Below are positions 22,995 through 32,914 of a DNA stretch of 32,914 bases, in pieces. Positions within the stretch are counted from its first letter, which is position 1, and each line of letters begins with the position of its first letter. This stretch comes from Thermoproteota archaeon. Its GTDB lineage: Archaea > Korarchaeota > Korarchaeia > Korarchaeales > Korarchaeaceae. The stretch is taken from positions 1 through 32,914 of the forward strand of contig JARZZM010000051.1 in the NCBI GenBank assembly GCA_030130125.1, written 5' to 3'. A program made the position numbers and the translations under genes. Below the pieces are notes generated by a model that was not told the DNA's origin, searched no databases, and saw only the letters and a list, made by a program, of their open reading frames with translations.

Positions 22995-25736
22995 TCAGCT
23001 GCTGGGCAGCCCGACCGGGACTACCAGCACAGGCTGCACAGTGACCTTAGTAGGCACAGTGGTCGGCCTTATACCGATGACTATGACGGCAGGAGCGTTG
23101 TCGCCGACACCAGCGTTGTAGTAGGTCTGTATTGTGGTGTTAGCCAGTTTGGTCGGGTCGGCCAACGCTATGCTAGCTGCGAGCGTACCGAACCTGTCGG
23201 TACCAGCAACGACCAGTATAGCCTTGTCCTCATTCCACGGGTTGGTCTTGGCATACTGGATCACGCCGAGGCCGTTACCACCTTCGATCTTGTACACATA
23301 GGTGGTATCTATGGTCGGGTCTATCAGCTTGATGGCGTAGGTCAAGTTAATGTCCCTCTCACCAGGAGCACCCTGTGGGTTGTACAGCCACGTGGTCTTG
23401 CCGTCGGTCTTGTACAGTATGTATAGGTTACCGGTGTCGTTCAGATAGTCCACGAGCGTATTGACCAGAGGACCACCGACGAGTATGAGGTTCTTGTCCA
23501 CTACGTCCTCGCTTAGAGTCTCACCGTCGAAGACCCAGTCGTCCATGTATGCTATCGGGGCCCTTATGAAGCTGAAGACCTCCTCCGGGTTGGCGAAGTT
23601 GAAGTACAGGTCCTTGTACTCATCTGGCGTTACATCCTCGAATACGGTGCCGCCCTCGGGCGTGGACACCGGTACGAGCTCAGTAGCGCCAGTGAATATG
23701 CCGTCACCATCCCTGTCCTCCACTCTGTCGTAGATACCAGCGAACACTCCAGTGGCGTTTATCGGATAGAGCCAGTTGAGCTGCCAGTGATAGACTGCGA
23801 GGGTCACATCCTCGGTATTATAATCAGCGTAGGTGTCGAAGCCAAGGTACTTGCCGCATCCCTCGATCTCGGGAGCGTACTCGCTCACAAGCTCGTCGGG
23901 CTCGGCGAAGGACTCACACTCGAGCTCTTTCATCACTTCATCCTTCTGTGTGAACTCGTAGAGACCCCAAGTCGGTCCACAAGCGGGTCCGCAGTATTCG
24001 CCAGCTATTCCAGGTGGCAGCGCGGGGCACTCCTGTCCAGCAACGAGCTGCTTGCTCACCACGCTGGTGAACCAGTAGTCCTTACCACCGACCACGAGGT
24101 GTCCGTCCTCGTTGAGAGGTTCATACCAGCCGGTCTCGTTCTGTGTGAAGAGCGTAGCTCCCAGCGTACCGGACTTCACCACCATGTACCAGACAACATC
24201 CTCCTTGTCGCTGTCGGTGTAGTAGCCACTTATGCCCAAGAAGGCCTCGTCCTCAGCGAGACCCTCAAGCCATGGGCCGAAGACGGTCTGCTCATCAACT
24301 ATGTAGCCCTTAGCCTCATAGAAGTGACTGGCAGCATTAGCTACGTCGCTACCTGTGGCGTATGAGAGGAGCATGTTACCTCCAGCGAACACCCTAGGAC
24401 CGGTGGGATCTGGATAGTTTGACAGCTCGATTATCACATCCACATTAGCGCTTCCCACATCGGAGTCAGCAGCATTGGCGTAGTCGGAGCCAGCAGGGTG
24501 AGGCCATCCGTAGGTGCTGTCGAAGAACCATACGGTGTTGTCCCAGTCGAAGGCCCTATCTCCAGTGCCAGTAGTCTCACCGTGGCCAGGATAGATGTTG
24601 GGAGCGAGCACTAGCGAGTAGAAGTCCATGGTCACGGTCTCGAGAACCTCGTCAACATCCCTGACGGTTATTCCGAAGTAGGGTACCAGCCTCTCATCGT
24701 CAGAGATCACGTCATCTCCATCTATGTCAGCGAGTATATAGATGTCCCTGTGTATCATGCTGTAGAGGAACTTCTCGAAGGTGGTGGGGTCGTTATCTTC
24801 AGGTACACCACCAGCACTCTCTATGTGGAAGTAGTCCACAGGCGTATCGGTCCCTATCTTGTAGACCACGAAGCCAACACTATAGGTGTCAGGCTCCTTA
24901 ACCTCGACAGTCTCAGCCACGAGCTTGTAGCCCATCCAAGGCAGGGTTATCTCGGTTCCTTTCTTAACATCTATCGGGTTAAGCGGGTGTATGAAGTAGA
25001 AACCGCCGTGGGACCAGCTGTAGGTTATGGGTCCGTCGACTGGGTCGTAATCCTTGGTGGTGTCCCAAGCATCATAGTCAAACGTGAAGCTACCGGGGCA
25101 GTCGAAGCTGAGCGGAGTAGCATACGAGGATCTCTCATTGTCAGTGTAGGCGGGCGGGAAGTAGTCAGGAGCGAAGACCACCCACTCCTTCAGATCATCA
25201 GGGTCTACCTCGAGGCCTATGGAGTAGGTTATCTGAGTGGGGTTATCAACGCTCTTCACGCTAGAGGGCACGAACACGTATCCGTCGTGTAGCGGGTATA
25301 TCTGATCAAAGCCCGGCTCTCCATCCCAATTCCAACTCCATAGGAATCCCCAGAAGGTATCGGAGTCCTTCCAGTCGCCAACAAGATCTAAAGCCTGGTA
25401 TCTGTGTCCGTACACCTCAGCAGTGAAGCTACCATGATAGAGTGTTATACCATTGGCGGCGGCGTGCTTAGCGTCCACCCACATGGCATTGGTATAGTAC
25501 AGGTGGGAGGCTATCTTGGCAGCTAAGAGAGTGGCACCAAGGACATCCTCGGGAGCGGCCTTGCTGCCCAATATTATGGCTATGTCTGGGGTACCATCGA
25601 AGTCATAGTCTATTGTGCCATCCTGCACGAAGGGTTGCGGGAACATGTGGATCGGGTAGGCCATAGCAGGGAGAAGACTAGCTCCCAGCAGCACTACTAA
25701 GGCCGCTATTATGTACATATTCTTCATAGCCTTCAT
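22995..25736 (-). CDS. S-layer protein
   Basis: This 913-residue secreted protein probably forms the paracrystalline surface layer. It has a cleavable signal peptide (to about AMA at residue 26), then an acidic, Asp/Glu/Tyr-rich, Lys-poor ectodomain. Archaeal S-layer hallmarks are the N-terminal DIAIILGSKAAPEDVLGATL and the C-terminal NLILVGGPLVN plus AILVVAGTDRFGTLAASIAL, which resemble the split S-layer domain of methanococcal-type proteins. There is no C-terminal membrane helix, so it needs another anchor. The ATG at 25736 has GGAGGTG 6 bases upstream, a strong site that suits a very abundant protein. Neighbouring genes encode anchored envelope proteins. Confidence 0.88.
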   Translation of the reverse strand: MKAMKNMYIIAALVVLLGASLLPAMAYPIHMFPQPFVQDGTIDYDFDGTPDIAIILGSKAAPEDVLGATLLAAKIASHLYYTNAMWVDAKHAAANGITLYHGSFTAEVYGHRYQALDLVGDWKDSDTFWGFLWSWNWDGEPGFDQIYPLHDGYVFVPSSVKSVDNPTQITYSIGLEVDPDDLKEWVVFAPDYFPPAYTDNERSSYATPLSFDCPGSFTFDYDAWDTTKDYDPVDGPITYSWSHGGFYFIHPLNPIDVKKGTEITLPWMGYKLVAETVEVKEPDTYSVGFVVYKIGTDTPVDYFHIESAGGVPEDNDPTTFEKFLYSMIHRDIYILADIDGDDVISDDERLVPYFGITVRDVDEVLETVTMDFYSLVLAPNIYPGHGETTGTGDRAFDWDNTVWFFDSTYGWPHPAGSDYANAADSDVGSANVDVIIELSNYPDPTGPRVFAGGNMLLSYATGSDVANAASHFYEAKGYIVDEQTVFGPWLEGLAEDEAFLGISGYYTDSDKEDVVWYMVVKSGTLGATLFTQNETGWYEPLNEDGHLVVGGKDYWFTSVVSKQLVAGQECPALPPGIAGEYCGPACGPTWGLYEFTQKDEVMKELECESFAEPDELVSEYAPEIEGCGKYLGFDTYADYNTEDVTLAVYHWQLNWLYPINATGVFAGIYDRVEDRDGDGIFTGATELVPVSTPEGGTVFEDVTPDEYKDLYFNFANPEEVFSFIRAPIAYMDDWVFDGETLSEDVVDKNLILVGGPLVNTLVDYLNDTGNLYILYKTDGKTTWLYNPQGAPGERDINLTYAIKLIDPTIDTTYVYKIEGGNGLGVIQYAKTNPWNEDKAILVVAGTDRFGTLAASIALADPTKLANTTIQTYYNAGVGDNAPAVIVIGIRPTTVPTKVTVQPVLVVPVGLPSS

Positions 25737-26500: not shown

Positions 26501-27310
26501 TCAGGATAACCTCCTTCTGTACTCCTTCTCCTCCACCACCTCAAATATTTCCGTATCTCCAAGATCCTTAGAGATCGATTTCAGGATGAGAGTAGACATC
26601 CTCCTAACGAGCTTGGGATCTTGGGATTTGACTGAAATCACATATCTAGGAGCCCCAGCCGTGTATATATCGACTTCAACCCCCTCAGTTTTAGGCGTAG
26701 ATAACCCTCTCATTAATGACTTACGTATTCTCTCGACTCCATCGTAAGCAAATGAGACGAGCCTGACCACAATGTTCTTTACGTATATCGGTGGCCTAAT
26801 CTGAACCTTTACTATCTCTTCCAGTTTCTCCGAGAGTTTTTGATTTAAGCCAGCTTTAAGTAATGGGTCTAGTCCCTCGTATAGAACATCCTCTAAAGCC
26901 TCCATAGGGTTCTTGTAGTAATCAGCTAATTTTCCCCAAGATTCCTTGGCAACGGCTTCAGGATCTTGGAATCCCGCTCTCTGAGCAGCTATCTTCAGGA
27001 GAGAGATTACTCTCACCCTTTCTTTCCATTCTTCTAATTTTCTCTTCTTCTGCTCCTCACTGACGTATCTAAGAGAGAGATCTACTTGACCTAACTTTCT
27101 ATTCGCTCTTATAACTCTGCCTACTATTTTATCTCCTTCCTTGACGAAATCCCTGATATCTTTTATCCTCCCCGAGGCCACATGACTTCGGGGGATGTAT
27201 GCTTCGAGCCCCTCATATTCATCCAGTTCGACTATGACCCCATGGTCCTCGACTCTCTTTACTGTGCCGACAACAAGTTCGTTCCTCCTCGGAAAGGCCT
27301 TGTAGCTCAC
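26501..27310 (-). CDS. eif2a: Translation initiation factor aIF2 subunit alpha
   Basis: aIF2-alpha is part of the trimeric factor that delivers initiator tRNA to the small ribosomal subunit. The 269-residue protein has an N-terminal S1/OB domain (ELVVGTVKRVEDHGVIVELD ... VKEGDKIVGRVIRANRKLGQ), the helical middle domain (about 88-170) and the C-terminal alpha/beta domain (VEVDIYTAGAPRYVISVKSQ). The KRKLEEW and YVSEEQKK phrases are typical. The GTG start at 27310 overlaps the S27e stop by 4 bases (GTGA), with no clear separate ribosome binding site, so translation is coupled. nop10 follows. Confidence 0.96.
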   Translation of the reverse strand: MSYKAFPRRNELVVGTVKRVEDHGVIVELDEYEGLEAYIPRSHVASGRIKDIRDFVKEGDKIVGRVIRANRKLGQVDLSLRYVSEEQKKRKLEEWKERVRVISLLKIAAQRAGFQDPEAVAKESWGKLADYYKNPMEALEDVLYEGLDPLLKAGLNQKLSEKLEEIVKVQIRPPIYVKNIVVRLVSFAYDGVERIRKSLMRGLSTPKTEGVEVDIYTAGAPRYVISVKSQDPKLVRRMSTLILKSISKDLGDTEIFEVVEEKEYRRRLS

Positions 27311-27513
27311 TCTCTCACTCTACCCAGATATTCAATGACCGTCGCTAGGATCTCGGCCTTGCCGCCCCTAGGTCTGGCCAGTACCTCGTCGCACACGTGG
27401 CACGTGACCTCTCTGGAGGCGTGGGAGAAGATTATCTGCTCGTTACCGCACTTAGGGCACCTAACCCTGACGAAGTAACTCTTGGGGAGGGGTATCAGTT
27501 CCATCCTACCCAT
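27307..27513 (-). CDS. rps27e: Small ribosomal subunit protein S27e
   Basis: This is a 68-residue zinc-ribbon ribosomal protein. The ribbon is CPKCGNEQIIFSHASREVTCHVC, with four cysteines in two CxxC pairs, preceded by the family's LIPLPKSYFVRVR. I chose the ATG at 27513 because GAGGTG lies about 5-6 bases upstream; a GTG at 27522 overlaps that site, and an ATG at 27504 is possible. Normal length for the family. It sits between L44e and aIF2-alpha in the conserved order, with a 4-base overlap to the latter. Confidence 0.94.
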   Translation of the reverse strand: MGRMELIPLPKSYFVRVRCPKCGNEQIIFSHASREVTCHVCDEVLARPRGGKAEILATVIEYLGRVRE

Positions 27514-27524
27514 GAACACCACCT

Positions 27525-27803
27525 CTACCTCTTTATCTCCACCCTAGCTAGCCTCCCTAGGTTCCTCATCACCTTCCTGCCGCACTCCTCGCATGTGAGT
27601 ATGAGAAGCACTTTCTTGGTAGTTTTAGCCTTCCTCCTCAGCTTGCCTCTGGGCTCTCCTCCGTAACCCCTCCTCTTTCTCTCAAGCTGTCTCTGACCCC
27701 ACGACATCGTCCGTGCCTTGCCCTGCTTGTACAGGGAGACCTTGTGCTTGGTATGCTTGCCGCATCTGGGGCAGTACGTGTTGATCTCTGCAGGAACCTT
27801 CAT
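27525..27803 (-). CDS. rpl44e: Large ribosomal subunit protein L44e
   Basis: This 92-residue basic ribosomal protein opens with MKVPAEINTYCPRCGKHTKH and has a second cysteine pair in LTCEECGRK, together binding zinc. The KARTMSWGQRQLERKRRGYGG segment is strongly conserved in the family. Length is normal. Its ATG overlaps the GINS stop codon (ATGA), linking a ribosomal gene directly to a replication gene. S27e follows in the same operon. Confidence 0.96.
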   Translation of the reverse strand: MKVPAEINTYCPRCGKHTKHKVSLYKQGKARTMSWGQRQLERKRRGYGGEPRGKLRRKAKTTKKVLLILTCEECGRKVMRNLGRLARVEIKR

Positions 27804-28300
27804 TCCTCGACCACCTCAACAACTCCCTTCTTTTTCAAGGCCGACGCATTCTCCGAGGGAATGAATGCGATGTCACCCTCGGAGAACGGTCCGTAGACCT
27901 TCATGTCTACACCAACGAATCTGGCCACGGGAGTTTTAAACGTTACTAATACCCTCTCGACCTCATCACTCAGGGGGGCGAAAACCCTTCCCTCCTCGGT
28001 TTCCTCCTCGGCCTCGACTTTTTCGGCTCCATGAACAGATCTTTTGATCTCTTCTGAGATTATTCCTCCATAGAGAGCTCTCTTGAATGTTTTAGAGATG
28101 GACAGCGCGTTTTCCATCTCTATTCGCAGATCTCTGATCACCTCGGCAGCCTTGAGGTATATCCTACCCTCCAATCCCTCCGGTAGGTTCGTCAATAACT
28201 CCTCTTCGGCCGACCTGAGCCGGTCGATTAAGGAATCATCAACTCGGCCCTCAGCCAGCGAGATGAGAACCTCCCTTATCACATCCTTGTATTTTGCCAT
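27800..28300 (-). CDS. gins51: GINS complex protein, Gins51 (Gins15) type
   Basis: GINS is part of the replicative helicase complex with MCM and the Cdc45/RecJ-like protein. The 166-residue protein has an alpha-helical A domain (about 1-90), an acidic linker (VEAEEETEEGR) and a C-terminal beta B domain (about 116-164) containing FVGVDMKVYGPF and IPSENASALKKKGVVEVV. The order A then B is that of Gins51. The ATG at 28300 has only a weak GGTAG nearby; a possible internal promoter overlaps the PriS stop. Placement between PriS and L44e is the known archaeal arrangement. Confidence 0.9.
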   Translation of the reverse strand: MAKYKDVIREVLISLAEGRVDDSLIDRLRSAEEELLTNLPEGLEGRIYLKAAEVIRDLRIEMENALSISKTFKRALYGGIISEEIKRSVHGAEKVEAEEETEEGRVFAPLSDEVERVLVTFKTPVARFVGVDMKVYGPFSEGDIAFIPSENASALKKKGVVEVVEE

Positions 28301-28324: not shown

Positions 28325-28334
28325 CATAATTAAT
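28325..28334 (-). promoter_or_regulatory. Possible internal promoter before the GINS gene
   Basis: ATTAATTATG on the minus strand overlaps the PriS stop codon and is centred about 30 bases before the GINS ATG. It could let the GINS-L44e-S27e-aIF2alpha-Nop10 half be transcribed apart from the upstream replication genes. It is a prediction from spacing only. Confidence 0.35.
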
Positions 28335-29484
28335 GATTGAGTGGCTCCGCCCTCCCCCTCAAGATAACGAATGCCGCCGCGAAACCGGGCAGCTGAACCT
28401 CCTCACCCGGCGAATATGGCCCGAAAGCCTCATCTTTCAATCTGAATGCGGGGACGGGCATCTTCACTCGGACTTTGATCTCCGGCTCTGAGGGCAGGCC
28501 AACTGCGTCTTTGAACGGATTGAAGACCTCATACTCATCTAAGGAGAGTCGTAAAGCCCTGAATCCGGTCTTACCGTGGACGCTGTTTGGTATCCTAGTC
28601 AGCCTCCCCGTGTCCATGGTGACCATCCAGTCGATTCTCGCACCGGAACTCTGAGCCGACTCCTTTAGAAGGTTGAGGAGTCGCTTCCTCTCCCTAGAGC
28701 CGAGTTTGATCCCCATACCCTTGGAGAGGAGGAGTACTTTCTCCCTTATGGAAGGAGCTAGTTTCACGTGAGCACTCAACAGGTGTTCTAGGGCCCTCCT
28801 AGCGATACTGCTCCTCAGGTCCAGTCGCACGAGCCCCCTCTCTACCATGAAGAGGAAGGTTGGATCGAAGCCCCTACCCATCGCGTAGAAGGCGACTTCC
28901 CTCCTTCCCTCCTTGGATAGAGTGGTCAGTTTTCCCTCCGAGACCCTGACGTGGAAACCCCTGTTTCCTGTGTATGAGACCGCTATCTCGTCCAAGGAGG
29001 CGCCGAGGTCCTCAGACAGCACCTCTATGAGCTTCCCCACTTCCTTCTTAGTGAGAGATATACATCTCTCGTTGAGCCAGTGGTTGACCTCCATCCTCTT
29101 GGACCCGCATTTCGGACACTTACCTGGCGGAATACCCTTTCCACTGAGGCCGCAATTCTTGCACCTCCATATGGATTCCCTCTCGCACTCCTCGTCCTTG
29201 AAGTCCGTGGAGTCTATATCAAAGAGGAGTTCTGCCCTTATGGGCTCCTTCTCGGCCATTGGAGCCGTCGGGTTCCTGTAAAGGGAGACAGAGTAGTAGG
29301 CGTGCATAGGCGGGTTGTCAATTAGGTACTTCCTGAGCTCCGAGAGATCCCTAAAGGATATGTGCCTCCTGACCTTCCCCTCGAAGTCCCTAAACATGAA
29401 CTCCCTGAGAGGTACATCCGAAACGTATATGGTGCTAGCCATGCTCCTGTAATACCTAGCGAAGAGTTTCTCGAGTTCCCTCAA
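28330..29484 (-). CDS. priS: DNA primase catalytic subunit PriS
   Basis: PriS synthesises primers as the catalytic half of archaeal primase. The 384-residue protein has the catalytic Asp pair in LLFDIDSTD (Asp89, Asp91), a zinc-binding region with Cys100, Cys108, Cys111, Cys123 and Cys126, the GNRGFHV nucleotide-binding motif and the third metal Asp in MDTGRLTRIPNSVHGKTG (Asp291). Residues 334-384 form an extra tail (FGPYSPGEEVQLP) resembling the GINS B domain. TTG at 29484 overlaps the PriL stop (TTGA) and has GGAGGG 7 bases upstream. Confidence 0.95.
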   Translation of the reverse strand: MRELEKLFARYYRSMASTIYVSDVPLREFMFRDFEGKVRRHISFRDLSELRKYLIDNPPMHAYYSVSLYRNPTAPMAEKEPIRAELLFDIDSTDFKDEECERESIWRCKNCGLSGKGIPPGKCPKCGSKRMEVNHWLNERCISLTKKEVGKLIEVLSEDLGASLDEIAVSYTGNRGFHVRVSEGKLTTLSKEGRREVAFYAMGRGFDPTFLFMVERGLVRLDLRSSIARRALEHLLSAHVKLAPSIREKVLLLSKGMGIKLGSRERKRLLNLLKESAQSSGARIDWMVTMDTGRLTRIPNSVHGKTGFRALRLSLDEYEVFNPFKDAVGLPSEPEIKVRVKMPVPAFRLKDEAFGPYSPGEEVQLPGFAAAFVILRGRAEPLNH

Positions 29485-30410
29485 TCAAAACCCTCCAGCA
29501 TGTATCTCCTTCCGCAGTCACTGGGACACAGACCCCAGTTCTTCATAGTCTCGCAGCTAGGGGGTTTATACTTCCTCTTGGCTATGTGGGAGATTTGGGA
29601 GGAGGCTATCCTCTCGTTGAAGTCCGGCACACTCCTGAACAGGTCCAGCACCTGTTCCTCTGACCAGCCCACATTGAGTAAGAAGGCCGTCAGGGCGAAC
29701 CTGGCTTGGTGAGTCAGGTTCTCTCCCCTCCTGAGTTTGGATATGAGCTCCCTTATGCAGGGCGGGAAGTCTCCTTTCCTAGGTCTCTTGAACCTCTTCT
29801 TCATCCTCTTGGCGAACATATCTGAGATCTCCCTAGCTATCTCCTCCAGCGGATCGGGCAGCTCTATTCTAGGGGTTTCCATTATCCTCAACTTCACATA
29901 CTCAGAGATCAGCCTCCTCAAATCTCTCTCATTTACGAGGACATACCCCTTCCTCACCACACGATTGACGAGCCTCCACTTCGGCCCGCCTATACCTGCA
30001 CAGCCGTTAGAGTAGCTGATCACATCGACCCAGAGTCCATCACTAAGCCTGAACTCGAAACCGAACGTCCCCCTAGCCAAGTCTATCAGTTTCTCCGTGG
30101 ATAAGCGTTCAGACAGTTCCATGAACCTCTTGGCCTCGTAGTTGGCCAATCTGCTGAGCATCGATCTCCCTACTCTGGAGGCTATTAGCTTAGCCGCGAC
30201 GAAGGCGTATACCTCGTTCACTGGATTTGTCATGTCTGGGTAGAGGATCCTTCCCTCGATGGCCCTGATCAGCCTCTCTCTAGCGAGCCTCCTGGCGTTC
30301 TCCAGCAAGGGGTCGAAGGCCAAGTCATCCAGCGTCAAACCCTGCTCTTCTAGAAGGGCTGCAGCCTCCCTTGAAAAAGGGGCGATGAGAAGGATCTCCC
30401 CTTCCCTCAT
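29481..30410 (-). CDS. priL: DNA primase large subunit PriL
   Basis: PriL is the regulatory partner of PriS, with a 4Fe-4S domain needed for initiation. The 309-residue protein has a helical N-domain and a C-terminal Fe-S domain with four cysteines: Cys218 (FPPCIREL), Cys286 (KPPSCETM), Cys295 and Cys299 (LCPSDCG). The spacing is typical. The ATG at 30410 lies 4 bases after the PCNA stop, with AGGTA just upstream overlapping the PCNA end. It precedes PriS with a 4-base overlap, so the two subunits are made from coupled reading frames. Confidence 0.93.
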   Translation of the reverse strand: MREGEILLIAPFSREAAALLEEQGLTLDDLAFDPLLENARRLARERLIRAIEGRILYPDMTNPVNEVYAFVAAKLIASRVGRSMLSRLANYEAKRFMELSERLSTEKLIDLARGTFGFEFRLSDGLWVDVISYSNGCAGIGGPKWRLVNRVVRKGYVLVNERDLRRLISEYVKLRIMETPRIELPDPLEEIAREISDMFAKRMKKRFKRPRKGDFPPCIRELISKLRRGENLTHQARFALTAFLLNVGWSEEQVLDLFRSVPDFNERIASSQISHIAKRKYKPPSCETMKNWGLCPSDCGRRYMLEGFD

Positions 30411-30414
30411 CTGA

Positions 30415-31167
30415 TCATACCTGTAGGTGGGCTAAGTAGTAGGTTATGCCTGCCCCCTCTATGCCTCCGAGGGGGTATGTGAGTTTGAGAGGGGCCTGCG
30501 TCTTCAATTCCAAATCAGCCTCCTCGGAGATCTTCGCTGGTTTCGTCATCTTCTCCAAGTAGGCCATGTTGTAAACGCTCTTAGAGGGTTCCTCAGCCCA
30601 CACATCTATCAGGGCCCTATCCTCCTTAGAGATGGATATTGTAGCCTTTCCCTTGTCGCTCTCGGCCCTGAATTCTACCTTCTCGCCGTCTATGTAGATC
30701 TCAACGTCGGATCCTATTATCTTCAGGTCCTTTATGGCATTTGGTATCACGTCGCTGTCTAACCTCGCCTTGGCTTTGTAGTCCACCTTTATCGTCTTGA
30801 ACTCGAATGGAGTCCCAGCCAGCAGGGGCAGCTCGAAGGTCTTCCTGTATCCATCGGTAGCGGTAACCTTCATCAGGGACTCGGTGAACTCCAGCTCCAC
30901 CCTCTCCTTGGCCTTCACCCTCTTAAGTATCTTGGAGAGGTCGGTGAAGTTTATCCCGTAGAAGTTGGACTGATCCACCTCAAAGTCTATGAAATATGTT
31001 CTAGGAAGTATCAGCTGGATCATGGCGGTTTTCGAGGGATCCAAGGCCTGAAGGCCCATGCCCTCCTCCGGATCCAGCTTAATGGAGGCCTCGCCCACTA
31101 GGGATTCAACCGCGTCAACTATGGCCTTGAGGGTACTGGCCTCCTCGAAGACCACTCTATTCACCAT
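30415..31167 (-). CDS. pcn: Sliding clamp PCNA
   Basis: PCNA is the ring-shaped processivity clamp for PolD and other DNA enzymes. The 250-residue protein has the two clamp domains joined by an interdomain connector region (about 115-130) and the typical GLQALDPSKTAMIQLILP and the C-terminal APLKLTYPLGG ... ITYYLAHLQV. A single pcn gene here suggests a homotrimer, though other copies may lie elsewhere. I chose the ATG at 31167, preceded by AGGTGGT at a good distance, over an in-frame GTG at 31176 inside that site. It overlaps the OB-fold gene by 11 bases. Confidence 0.95.
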   Translation of the reverse strand: MVNRVVFEEASTLKAIVDAVESLVGEASIKLDPEEGMGLQALDPSKTAMIQLILPRTYFIDFEVDQSNFYGINFTDLSKILKRVKAKERVELEFTESLMKVTATDGYRKTFELPLLAGTPFEFKTIKVDYKAKARLDSDVIPNAIKDLKIIGSDVEIYIDGEKVEFRAESDKGKATISISKEDRALIDVWAEEPSKSVYNMAYLEKMTKPAKISEEADLELKTQAPLKLTYPLGGIEGAGITYYLAHLQV

Positions 31168-31486
31168 CCCTACCACCTTTCAATTTTCTCTCCACTTCTC
31201 GCCTTACCTCATCCACGTCCCTGAGCAAACTTATATCTATTCCTGATATGTCGGCAATTGCGTATCCCTGCAGCTCTTTGAAATCCTCCGAGGACGTGAT
31301 CACTGAACCCACCACCAGCACTATGTCCTTGGGCTTGAAGTCGGAGGCCCTATCGTAATACACCCTAGCTCGGGATGTACCATCATCCAAGATCAGGTAA
31401 TTCTCTATCACGTTTATGACCACACCTATTATGGCCACCTCGCCTTCCCTAACCTCCCTTATCCTGACCCACTTCAAGTGGAGCAT
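31157..31486 (-). CDS. Small OB-fold protein between PolD and PCNA genes
   Basis: This 109-residue protein reads as one OB-fold: strands in EVAIIGVVINVIENYLILDD, DGTSRARVYY and KDIVLVVGSVI, then a charged C-terminal helix (LLRDVDEVRREVERKLKGG). This is the style of RPA/Stn1-like single-OB or tRNA_anti nucleic-acid-binding proteins. I cannot name a family. Placement between PolD DP2 (stop 5 bases upstream) and PCNA (11-base overlap) suggests a replication role: a small single-strand binding or PolD/PCNA accessory factor. GGGAGG touches the ATG at 31486, so a TTG three codons later at 31477 may be the real start. Confidence 0.7.
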   Translation of the reverse strand: MLHLKWVRIREVREGEVAIIGVVINVIENYLILDDGTSRARVYYDRASDFKPKDIVLVVGSVITSSEDFKELQGYAIADISGIDISLLRDVDEVRREVERKLKGGRDGE

Positions 31487-31491
31487 CCTCC

Positions 31492-32914
31492 CTACAGGAA
31501 ATCCACGAGTTTCCTAGCGATGGGCCTATCCTTGTTCCCCTCTTTCCTCTTCCCTTTTCTGTTCCTTGAATGCTCCAGCTCAGTATCAGGGGTCTTCTCA
31601 CCCAGAACGGATTCAAGTGTGTTGAAAGAGCCTGTGTCCTCTTCCTCCCTGAAGAGGGACCTAGCCTCGGCCTCCAGCACCTTTATCCTCTGGGACAGGT
31701 ACCCTTCAATTCCGTACTCGCGCATGAGTGATAGTGTGGGCTCCAAGTACTTCAGCACCGTTCCCTTGTGCACGGTGAGCTGCACGGGCCCACCGCACAC
31801 GAGGCATTTGCCCGAGAGCGGCGGCCTCCTGTACTTGGCATTGCACTTGGTGCACCTGAACGTCTGCTGGCCGAACTTCCTCAGGTTGCCCACTATGTCC
31901 CTTATGAAGTGGGAGGAGATGGCTCTCGAGAGGGCGTCCATCTTATCCACAGCCTTTATCCTCTCTTCTAGGGAGAAATGAGCCCTCATCTTATCCTCCA
32001 TCTTGTTCAGCTTCCTATACATCGTCTGGAGTGGTCCACCATAAACGTGAGAGGTGGGTACGGAGTACCCAATTTCTGGGTACTTGACGCCCCTCGCGAG
32101 CTCGGTCTCCACCGTCGGCACCAAGTCCTTCAGCTTGCCTGGATCCTCGTACCTGTAGGTGGCCTCGTAAAATGCTGAGGGCAGGGAGGTCGCCACCTCC
32201 ATGTTGTACACCTCGTCGTCTATGTACTCCGGATCCACCCTAGTCACCATCAAGAGGGGAGCATCTTCCCTTCCTCCCGGAGTGGAGGGCAGGAAGTCTT
32301 GGGAGAAGTTGATGAGCCCGTCTAGGGCGAGCATTATGGAGTCCTCATCCCCGTCGATGTTTCTCCTCTTGGCGGCGTGGAGGAAGGGGTGGGCATAGAG
32401 AACATCCGCGTCGGTGAATCCAATTATCCGGGCGACATTAGCCACGAACGTGTGGGGTGAGATCGTCAGGACCAGGTGCCCCACCAAATCCTCCTCGCTC
32501 TCCAAGTTGTAGAAGGATTCCAAGCCATACACCCTCTCCAAGAGCTCGTCCACGTATTTGGAGACCCTGAACAGGTACTTCGCAGCCTCCCTAGGTATTA
32601 TCACGTCCTGCACCTTCAGCACCAAGATCTGATCCTCGCTCACCAATTCATCCCCGCGGATGTCGTGGGTGTAGCCCAGCTCCCTCAGCTTCGAGATGGG
32701 GACCCCCGCTTCCTTGGGCTTGAAGTGGGTAAGCGCTGCGTTAACCGCGTCGAATCTTATCGTTCCGTCCTTGAATACGTAGAGGTCGTACTTACCCCTC
32801 AAAATGCCCTTCTCTATCAGCTCGGGTGATTTGGATCCGCTAGTCAGCCCCTTAACACCTTTAACCTTTTTTAGGAGTTCTGCGGGCTCTCTCAGGTTGG
32901 AGAGGGCTCTATCC
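31492..32914 (-). CDS. polC: DNA polymerase D large subunit DP2, C-terminal part
   Basis: DP2 is the catalytic subunit of archaeal family D DNA polymerase. About 473 residues are visible; the frame is open to the window edge, so the N-terminal portion (DP2 is usually over 1,000 residues) lies outside. The catalytic acidic cluster is in AAKRRNIDGDEDS, followed by the conserved SQDFLPSTPGG and VTRVDPEYIDDEVYNMEV. A zinc ribbon with two cysteine pairs (CTKC, CLVC) lies near the C-terminus. The last residues, ARKLVDFL, fit a degenerate PCNA-interacting peptide. It heads the visible part of the replication-translation operon. Confidence 0.95.
   Translation of the reverse strand, partial: DRALSNLREPAELLKKVKGVKGLTSGSKSPELIEKGILRGKYDLYVFKDGTIRFDAVNAALTHFKPKEAGVPISKLRELGYTHDIRGDELVSEDQILVLKVQDVIIPREAAKYLFRVSKYVDELLERVYGLESFYNLESEEDLVGHLVLTISPHTFVANVARIIGFTDADVLYAHPFLHAAKRRNIDGDEDSIMLALDGLINFSQDFLPSTPGGREDAPLLMVTRVDPEYIDDEVYNMEVATSLPSAFYEATYRYEDPGKLKDLVPTVETELARGVKYPEIGYSVPTSHVYGGPLQTMYRKLNKMEDKMRAHFSLEERIKAVDKMDALSRAISSHFIRDIVGNLRKFGQQTFRCTKCNAKYRRPPLSGKCLVCGGPVQLTVHKGTVLKYLEPTLSLMREYGIEGYLSQRIKVLEAEARSLFREEEDTGSFNTLESVLGEKTPDTELEHSRNRKGKRKEGNKDRPIARKLVDFL

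Follow-up and report, generated by a model that had tools for sequence, protein, structure and literature searches.

The protein encoded between the DP2 and PCNA genes of the window (the whole stretch of korarchaeal DNA analyzed here, 32,914 nucleotides long) is very probably the korarchaeal RPA14 (Rpa3), a scaffold at the replication fork within a heterotrimeric RPA whose three genes are dispersed. We describe here its family identity, its fold, its two partner genes, and their co-occurrence and synteny across archaea. The original prediction had seen a family without a known name; instead, sequence, profile, and fold comparisons all lead to RPA14/Rpa3, which assigns a function to a protein named by no Pfam or NCBIfam model. 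This is a newly assigned member of a known protein family. Less expected are the scattered RPA genes, in a lineage described as being without RPA, and a widespread RPA14-PCNA gene pair.

Gene neighborhood and start codon

The relevant features of the window, all on the reverse strand, are as follows.

31492..32913, reverse strand: C-terminal part of DP2, the large subunit of PolD, truncated at the end of the window (Pfam PolC_DP2_cat, E=4e-117)
31487..31491, reverse strand: GGAGG, a Shine-Dalgarno-like motif between the DP2 stop and RPA14 (from the sequence)
31157..31486, reverse strand: RPA14/Rpa3-like subunit, 109 aa from ATG, predicted to consist of a single OB fold followed by a C-terminal helix
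31477, reverse strand: probable alternative TTG start of RPA14 (codon 4; 106 aa)
30415..31176, reverse strand: PCNA sliding clamp (PCNA_N, 8e-14; likely ATG start at 31167)
29481..30410, reverse strand: PriL, primase large subunit
28330..29484, reverse strand: PriS, primase small subunit
27800..28300, reverse strand: Gins51 (Gins15), GINS subunit
27525..27803, reverse strand: ribosomal protein L44e
27307..27522, reverse strand: ribosomal protein S27e
26501..27310, reverse strand: translation initiation factor aIF2 alpha

The 109-codon open reading frame (ORF) thus has the 3' part of the DP2 gene on one side and the PCNA gene on the other. GGAGG and then the RPA14 ATG come right after the DP2 stop codon TAG, and the RPA14 stop is overlapped by 11 nt from the PCNA ATG (31167), so that the three genes are tightly coupled. 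A single-sequence search finds orthologues of this ORF in 25 of the 29 genomes of the phylum, with identity from 99% down to ~35%, which, together with the conserved gene order, excludes a chance ORF; it is a genuine conserved gene. Its start is uncertain. There is zero spacer between GGAGG and the ATG, the TTG at 31477 lies 9 nt downstream of GGAGG, and most orthologues begin at approximately codon 4 of the window ORF, matching this TTG; translation may therefore start there and yield 106 residues.

The window carries the PPsG-LSIN supercluster (PCNA-PriS-Gins15 with L44E-S27E-aIF2alpha-Nop10; PMC2643942) in the known order. Unlike in the published account, it is headed here by DP2 and RPA14; the text of that paper mentions RPA14 only for the RPA cluster of Thermococcales. 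Several other features of this region deserve mention. The DP2 in the window ends in a PIP-like RKLVDFL, and in most Korarchaeaceae the C-terminus of DP2 is a conserved [KR]LVDF[LM] (or an LSxFL-like sequence) that resembles a PCNA-binding motif (window positions 31492-31512; loci L001-L023). PriS (28330-29484) has a zinc-ribbon-like insertion at residues ~98-137, with sub-threshold rubredoxin/Zn-ribbon matches, and a large S-layer-like protein (22995-25736; PF05124, E=2e-35) is encoded downstream of the replication-translation cluster.

Assignment to the RPA14 family

A phmmer search of the PDB with the single sequence retrieves Pyrococcus abyssi RPA14 (8c5y_C) with E=4.7e-5 over residues 8-104, the next unrelated match being at 0.71. 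With a profile of 16 exclusively korarchaeal relatives (A1), P. abyssi RPA14 is found at 2.1e-12, followed by yeast RPA2 at 0.003. A closer sequence set (A2) reached 12 near relatives. The match of a wide profile (A5; E=3.6e-29) was not counted as independent evidence, since P. abyssi RPA14 itself (L147) is probably among its sequences. In the RPA14/RPA32 tree, a branch with support of 100/99 separates RPA14 from RPA32, and the PCNA-linked and operon-borne RPA14 fall together on its RPA14 side; branches are long, and positions within that side are unsure. Since sequence, profile, and fold (see below) agree, these comparisons identify the protein as almost certainly RPA14.

Several observations speak against this assignment. 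The protein shares only ~30% identity with P. abyssi RPA14, with similarity spanning the whole length; Pfam and NCBIfam scans of the window protein alone give only sub-threshold OB matches, and no Pfam or NCBIfam model gives a curated yes for archaeal RPA14. Besides, the RPA genes occupy separate loci, unlike those in Thermococcales, and RMI2, Ten1, and RPA32 are reasonable fold matches as well. The RPA14 of P. abyssi and P. furiosus (Rpa3; PDB 8aaj, 8aas, 8c5y) likewise combines a single OB fold with a C-terminal trimerization helix in about 110-120 aa, and is accompanied by RPA32 and RPA1 in the genome, as in the window's genome. However, it is encoded in an RPA1-RPA14-RPA32 operon, whereas the window gene lies between DP2 and PCNA. 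The Pfam model of eukaryotic RPA3 (Rep_fac-A_3, PF08661) weakly matches 12 of 32 archaeal RPA14 members (best 6e-6), with the korarchaeal protein itself too diverged to be within its reach.

Predicted fold and C-terminal helix

The AlphaFold2 model (mean pLDDT 88) consists of an OB barrel, with strands across residues 16-79, and a C-terminal helix at residues 85-103, bearing out the expectation of a single-OB protein with a charged C-terminal helix.

31247..31465, reverse strand: OB-fold beta barrel, residues 8-80 (AlphaFold2 model; most of the barrel has a pLDDT of about 92-97)
31178..31234, reverse strand: C-terminal amphipathic helix, residues 85-103 (AlphaFold2 model; predicted counterpart of the RPA trimerization helix)

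Among 120 archaeal sequences, helix positions 85, 87, 88, 91, 94, and 98 are hydrophobic in 71-94%; the predicted korarchaeal helix retains the hydrophobic spacing of the RPA trimerization helix. Foldseek searches of the PDB with this model rank P. abyssi RPA14 in places 1 to 3 (TM 0.71-0.76). RMI2 and Ten1 occupy ranks 4 to 7, and RPA32 is also a reasonable match, as expected for members of the same OB superfamily. The mention of RPA and Ten1 as comparisons in the original prediction was apt.

Partner subunits in the same genome

The partner candidates come from a scan for OB domains across the genome that contains the window. A 225-aa protein with OB and winged-helix domains (contig C6) has P. 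abyssi RPA32 as its best PDB match (E=6e-9); its model shows the OB fold plus winged helix, and its top PDB fold matches are also P. abyssi RPA32. The start of contig C17 encodes a Zn-finger OB domain most similar to P. abyssi RPA41 (E=4e-15), which makes it the RPA1 candidate. Its full-length orthologues in Korarchaeaceae (family f1) are about 556-578 aa long, with several OB domains and matches to Pfam REPA_OB_2 and Rep_fac-A_C. Judged by these similarities, the genome has a complete RPA set spread over three loci, with RPA14, RPA32, and RPA1 on separate contigs (C51, C6, and C17, respectively). The clustering of rpa1/rpa2 with RPA14, a non-defining lineage trait of Thermococcales, is absent in this genome.

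A 2023 structural survey states that RPA and RPA-like proteins are absent from Thermoproteota (PMC10122647); with the full predicted RPA set, this would fail for Korarchaeia when these are assigned to Thermoproteota. NCBI taxonomy does place Korarchaeum there, and the named relatives are mostly "Thermoproteota" or "Crenarchaeota" MAGs.

Genes next to those of the partner subunits were identified by eye. Genes after RPA32 appear to encode aIF2 beta, aIF1A, and a Rio-type kinase (L031, L044, L052, L055, L061, L062), also in the distant genomes of family f4. The RPA32-like protein of that family is a short single OB (about 136-149 aa) without the winged helix (L061, L062; genomes G001, G002). The RPA1 gene abuts one for an XPF/Hef-like nuclease, with a convergent Asp/Asn-tRNA synthetase gene beyond (L065, L067, L075).

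Gene order in Korarchaeia and other archaea

The DP2-RPA14-PCNA-PriL order is found in every Korarchaeaceae locus with enough contig (in L015 the contig ends before PCNA), so that the replication-linked position noted originally is conserved in every intact locus of the family. The family name for f1 is taken from the complete genome G009, probably that of "Candidatus Korarchaeum cryptofilum." In two deeper relatives (L024, L025), the gene upstream of RPA14 codes for a TFS-like Zn-ribbon protein, not DP2. The profile adds both f4 genomes to the RPA14 carriers from the single-sequence search; their gene order is RPA14-PCNA-PriL-PriS (L131, L132).

The korarchaeal profile detects RPA14 in 155 of 394 sampled archaeal genomes. 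The wide profile A5 gives a tally of 232 in the same genomes, often with two matches per genome, the second probably being RPA32, and was not used as an RPA14 count. Neighborhoods were read at 116 RPA14 loci outside Korarchaeia, counting the two f4 genomes, which belong to the same phylum. At 86 of these loci, from 34 families, PCNA follows immediately downstream of RPA14 in the same orientation, with a median gap of ~8 nt. An RPA1-RPA14-RPA32 operon occurs at 16 loci, among those inspected only in families f10 and f26, which we take to be, perhaps, Thermococcaceae and Methanocaldococcaceae. Other arrangements account for 13 loci, several of which lie at the end of a contig or have PCNA in divergent orientation or a little farther away; one of the 116 was not re-found. 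The link to DP2 is limited to Korarchaeaceae, and that to PCNA is far wider. At 29 of the 91 loci where both genes could be seen, RPA14 is preceded by a TFS gene, in keeping with the TFS-PCNA link reported earlier (PMC2643942).

RPA14-positive archaea almost always encode the partners as well: RPA32 is found in 150 and RPA1 in 149 of the 155 genomes (Fisher test, 6e-22 and 5e-9, values that are optimistic because the genomes are related). Position upstream of PCNA provides a simple rule for finding the third RPA subunit where only RPA1 or RPA32 is annotated, and the presence of the pair in 34 archaeal families outside Korarchaeia bears on the age of the eukaryote-type trimer. In the part of the literature accessible to us, we found no prior report of the RPA14-PCNA pair or of a korarchaeotal RPA, and priority is unproven.

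Alternative assignments

Proteins of the SSB, RMI2, and Ten1/Stn1 types and a PIP-type accessory were considered and rejected. The small size and single OB fold would suit a stand-alone SSB of the crenarchaeal/TACK type that coats single-stranded DNA independently, and single-OB SSBs and Rpa3 are described as hard to tell apart (PMC10122647). However, the window's genome encodes a separate Ssb-like OB protein of that type (L034:1333-1830; PF21473, E=1e-10), which coexists with RPA, and the Pfam scan of the window protein finds no match to PF21473. Its model lacks a long disordered tail, the protein is closest to RPA14 rather than SSB in both sequence and fold, and P. abyssi Rpa3, according to the same source, does not bind single-stranded DNA alone. 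An SSB is therefore very improbable, and the small single-strand-binding factor proposed originally is probably, by homology with Rpa3, a scaffold subunit instead. Membership in an OB complex of another kind, as an RMI2-, Ten1-, or Stn1-like subunit of a dissolvasome or CST-like assembly, is the most improbable of all. RMI2 and Ten1 (CST) share the OB superfamily and topology with the window protein, follow RPA14 in the Foldseek ranking, and weakly match family members in Pfam searches (RMI2 in 15 and Ten1_2 in 9 of 32). Yet both match less well than RPA14 by sequence and by fold, there is no evidence for partners of the CST or RMI kind, and RPA1 and RPA32 are both present. The RMI2 match is also non-discriminating, as P. 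abyssi-type RPA14 itself weakly matches RMI2 (E=1e-4); for the window protein, the RMI2 model PF16100 scores 12.8 bits, below the cut-off of 29.4.

A dedicated accessory of PolD or PCNA had been suggested from the gene position; such a protein would be bound to DP2 or the clamp and unrelated to RPA assembly. The fixed place between DP2 and PCNA in Korarchaeaceae and the PCNA linkage in 34 further families agree with this suggestion; direct binding to either PolD or PCNA gained no support. The protein is orthologous to RPA14 of RPA operons and tracks RPA1 and RPA32 across genomes, no PIP-type motif occurs in any of the 120 RPA14 family members, and DP2 is missing as a neighbor in the deeper relatives, all of which makes such an accessory highly unlikely. 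It is also rather doubtful that the widespread RPA14-PCNA arrangement reflects a genuine link to the clamp, either through joint synthesis with RPA14 or through a handoff from it, that sets RPA assembly or stoichiometry at the fork.

Proposed role of korarchaeal RPA14

The proposed scaffold role of RPA14, with its assembly into a trimer, its lack of DNA binding, and a functional purpose of the operon, is inferred from P. abyssi RPA. There, according to PMC10122647, each subunit contributes one C-terminal helix that holds the trimer core together, and Rpa3 makes no DNA contact in the structure and binds the N-terminal part of a neighboring Rpa1. The winged helix of archaeal RPA (RPA32) is reported to bind PolD and primase (PMC11686378). 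By analogy, the korarchaeal protein would use its OB fold and C-terminal helix to pack against the OB of RPA32 and the Zn-finger OB (DBD-C) of RPA1 via a three-helix bundle, building the trimerization core of an RPA that would coat single-stranded DNA at the fork; RPA14 would scaffold the complex, probably without contacting DNA. Located after DP2 and before the PCNA, primase, and GINS genes, the RPA14 gene would be co-expressed with the machinery that RPA serves. Together with the Rpa3 behavior and the winged-helix contacts, the retained helix spacing points to a scaffold subunit that would be co-expressed with PolD, the clamp, and primase.
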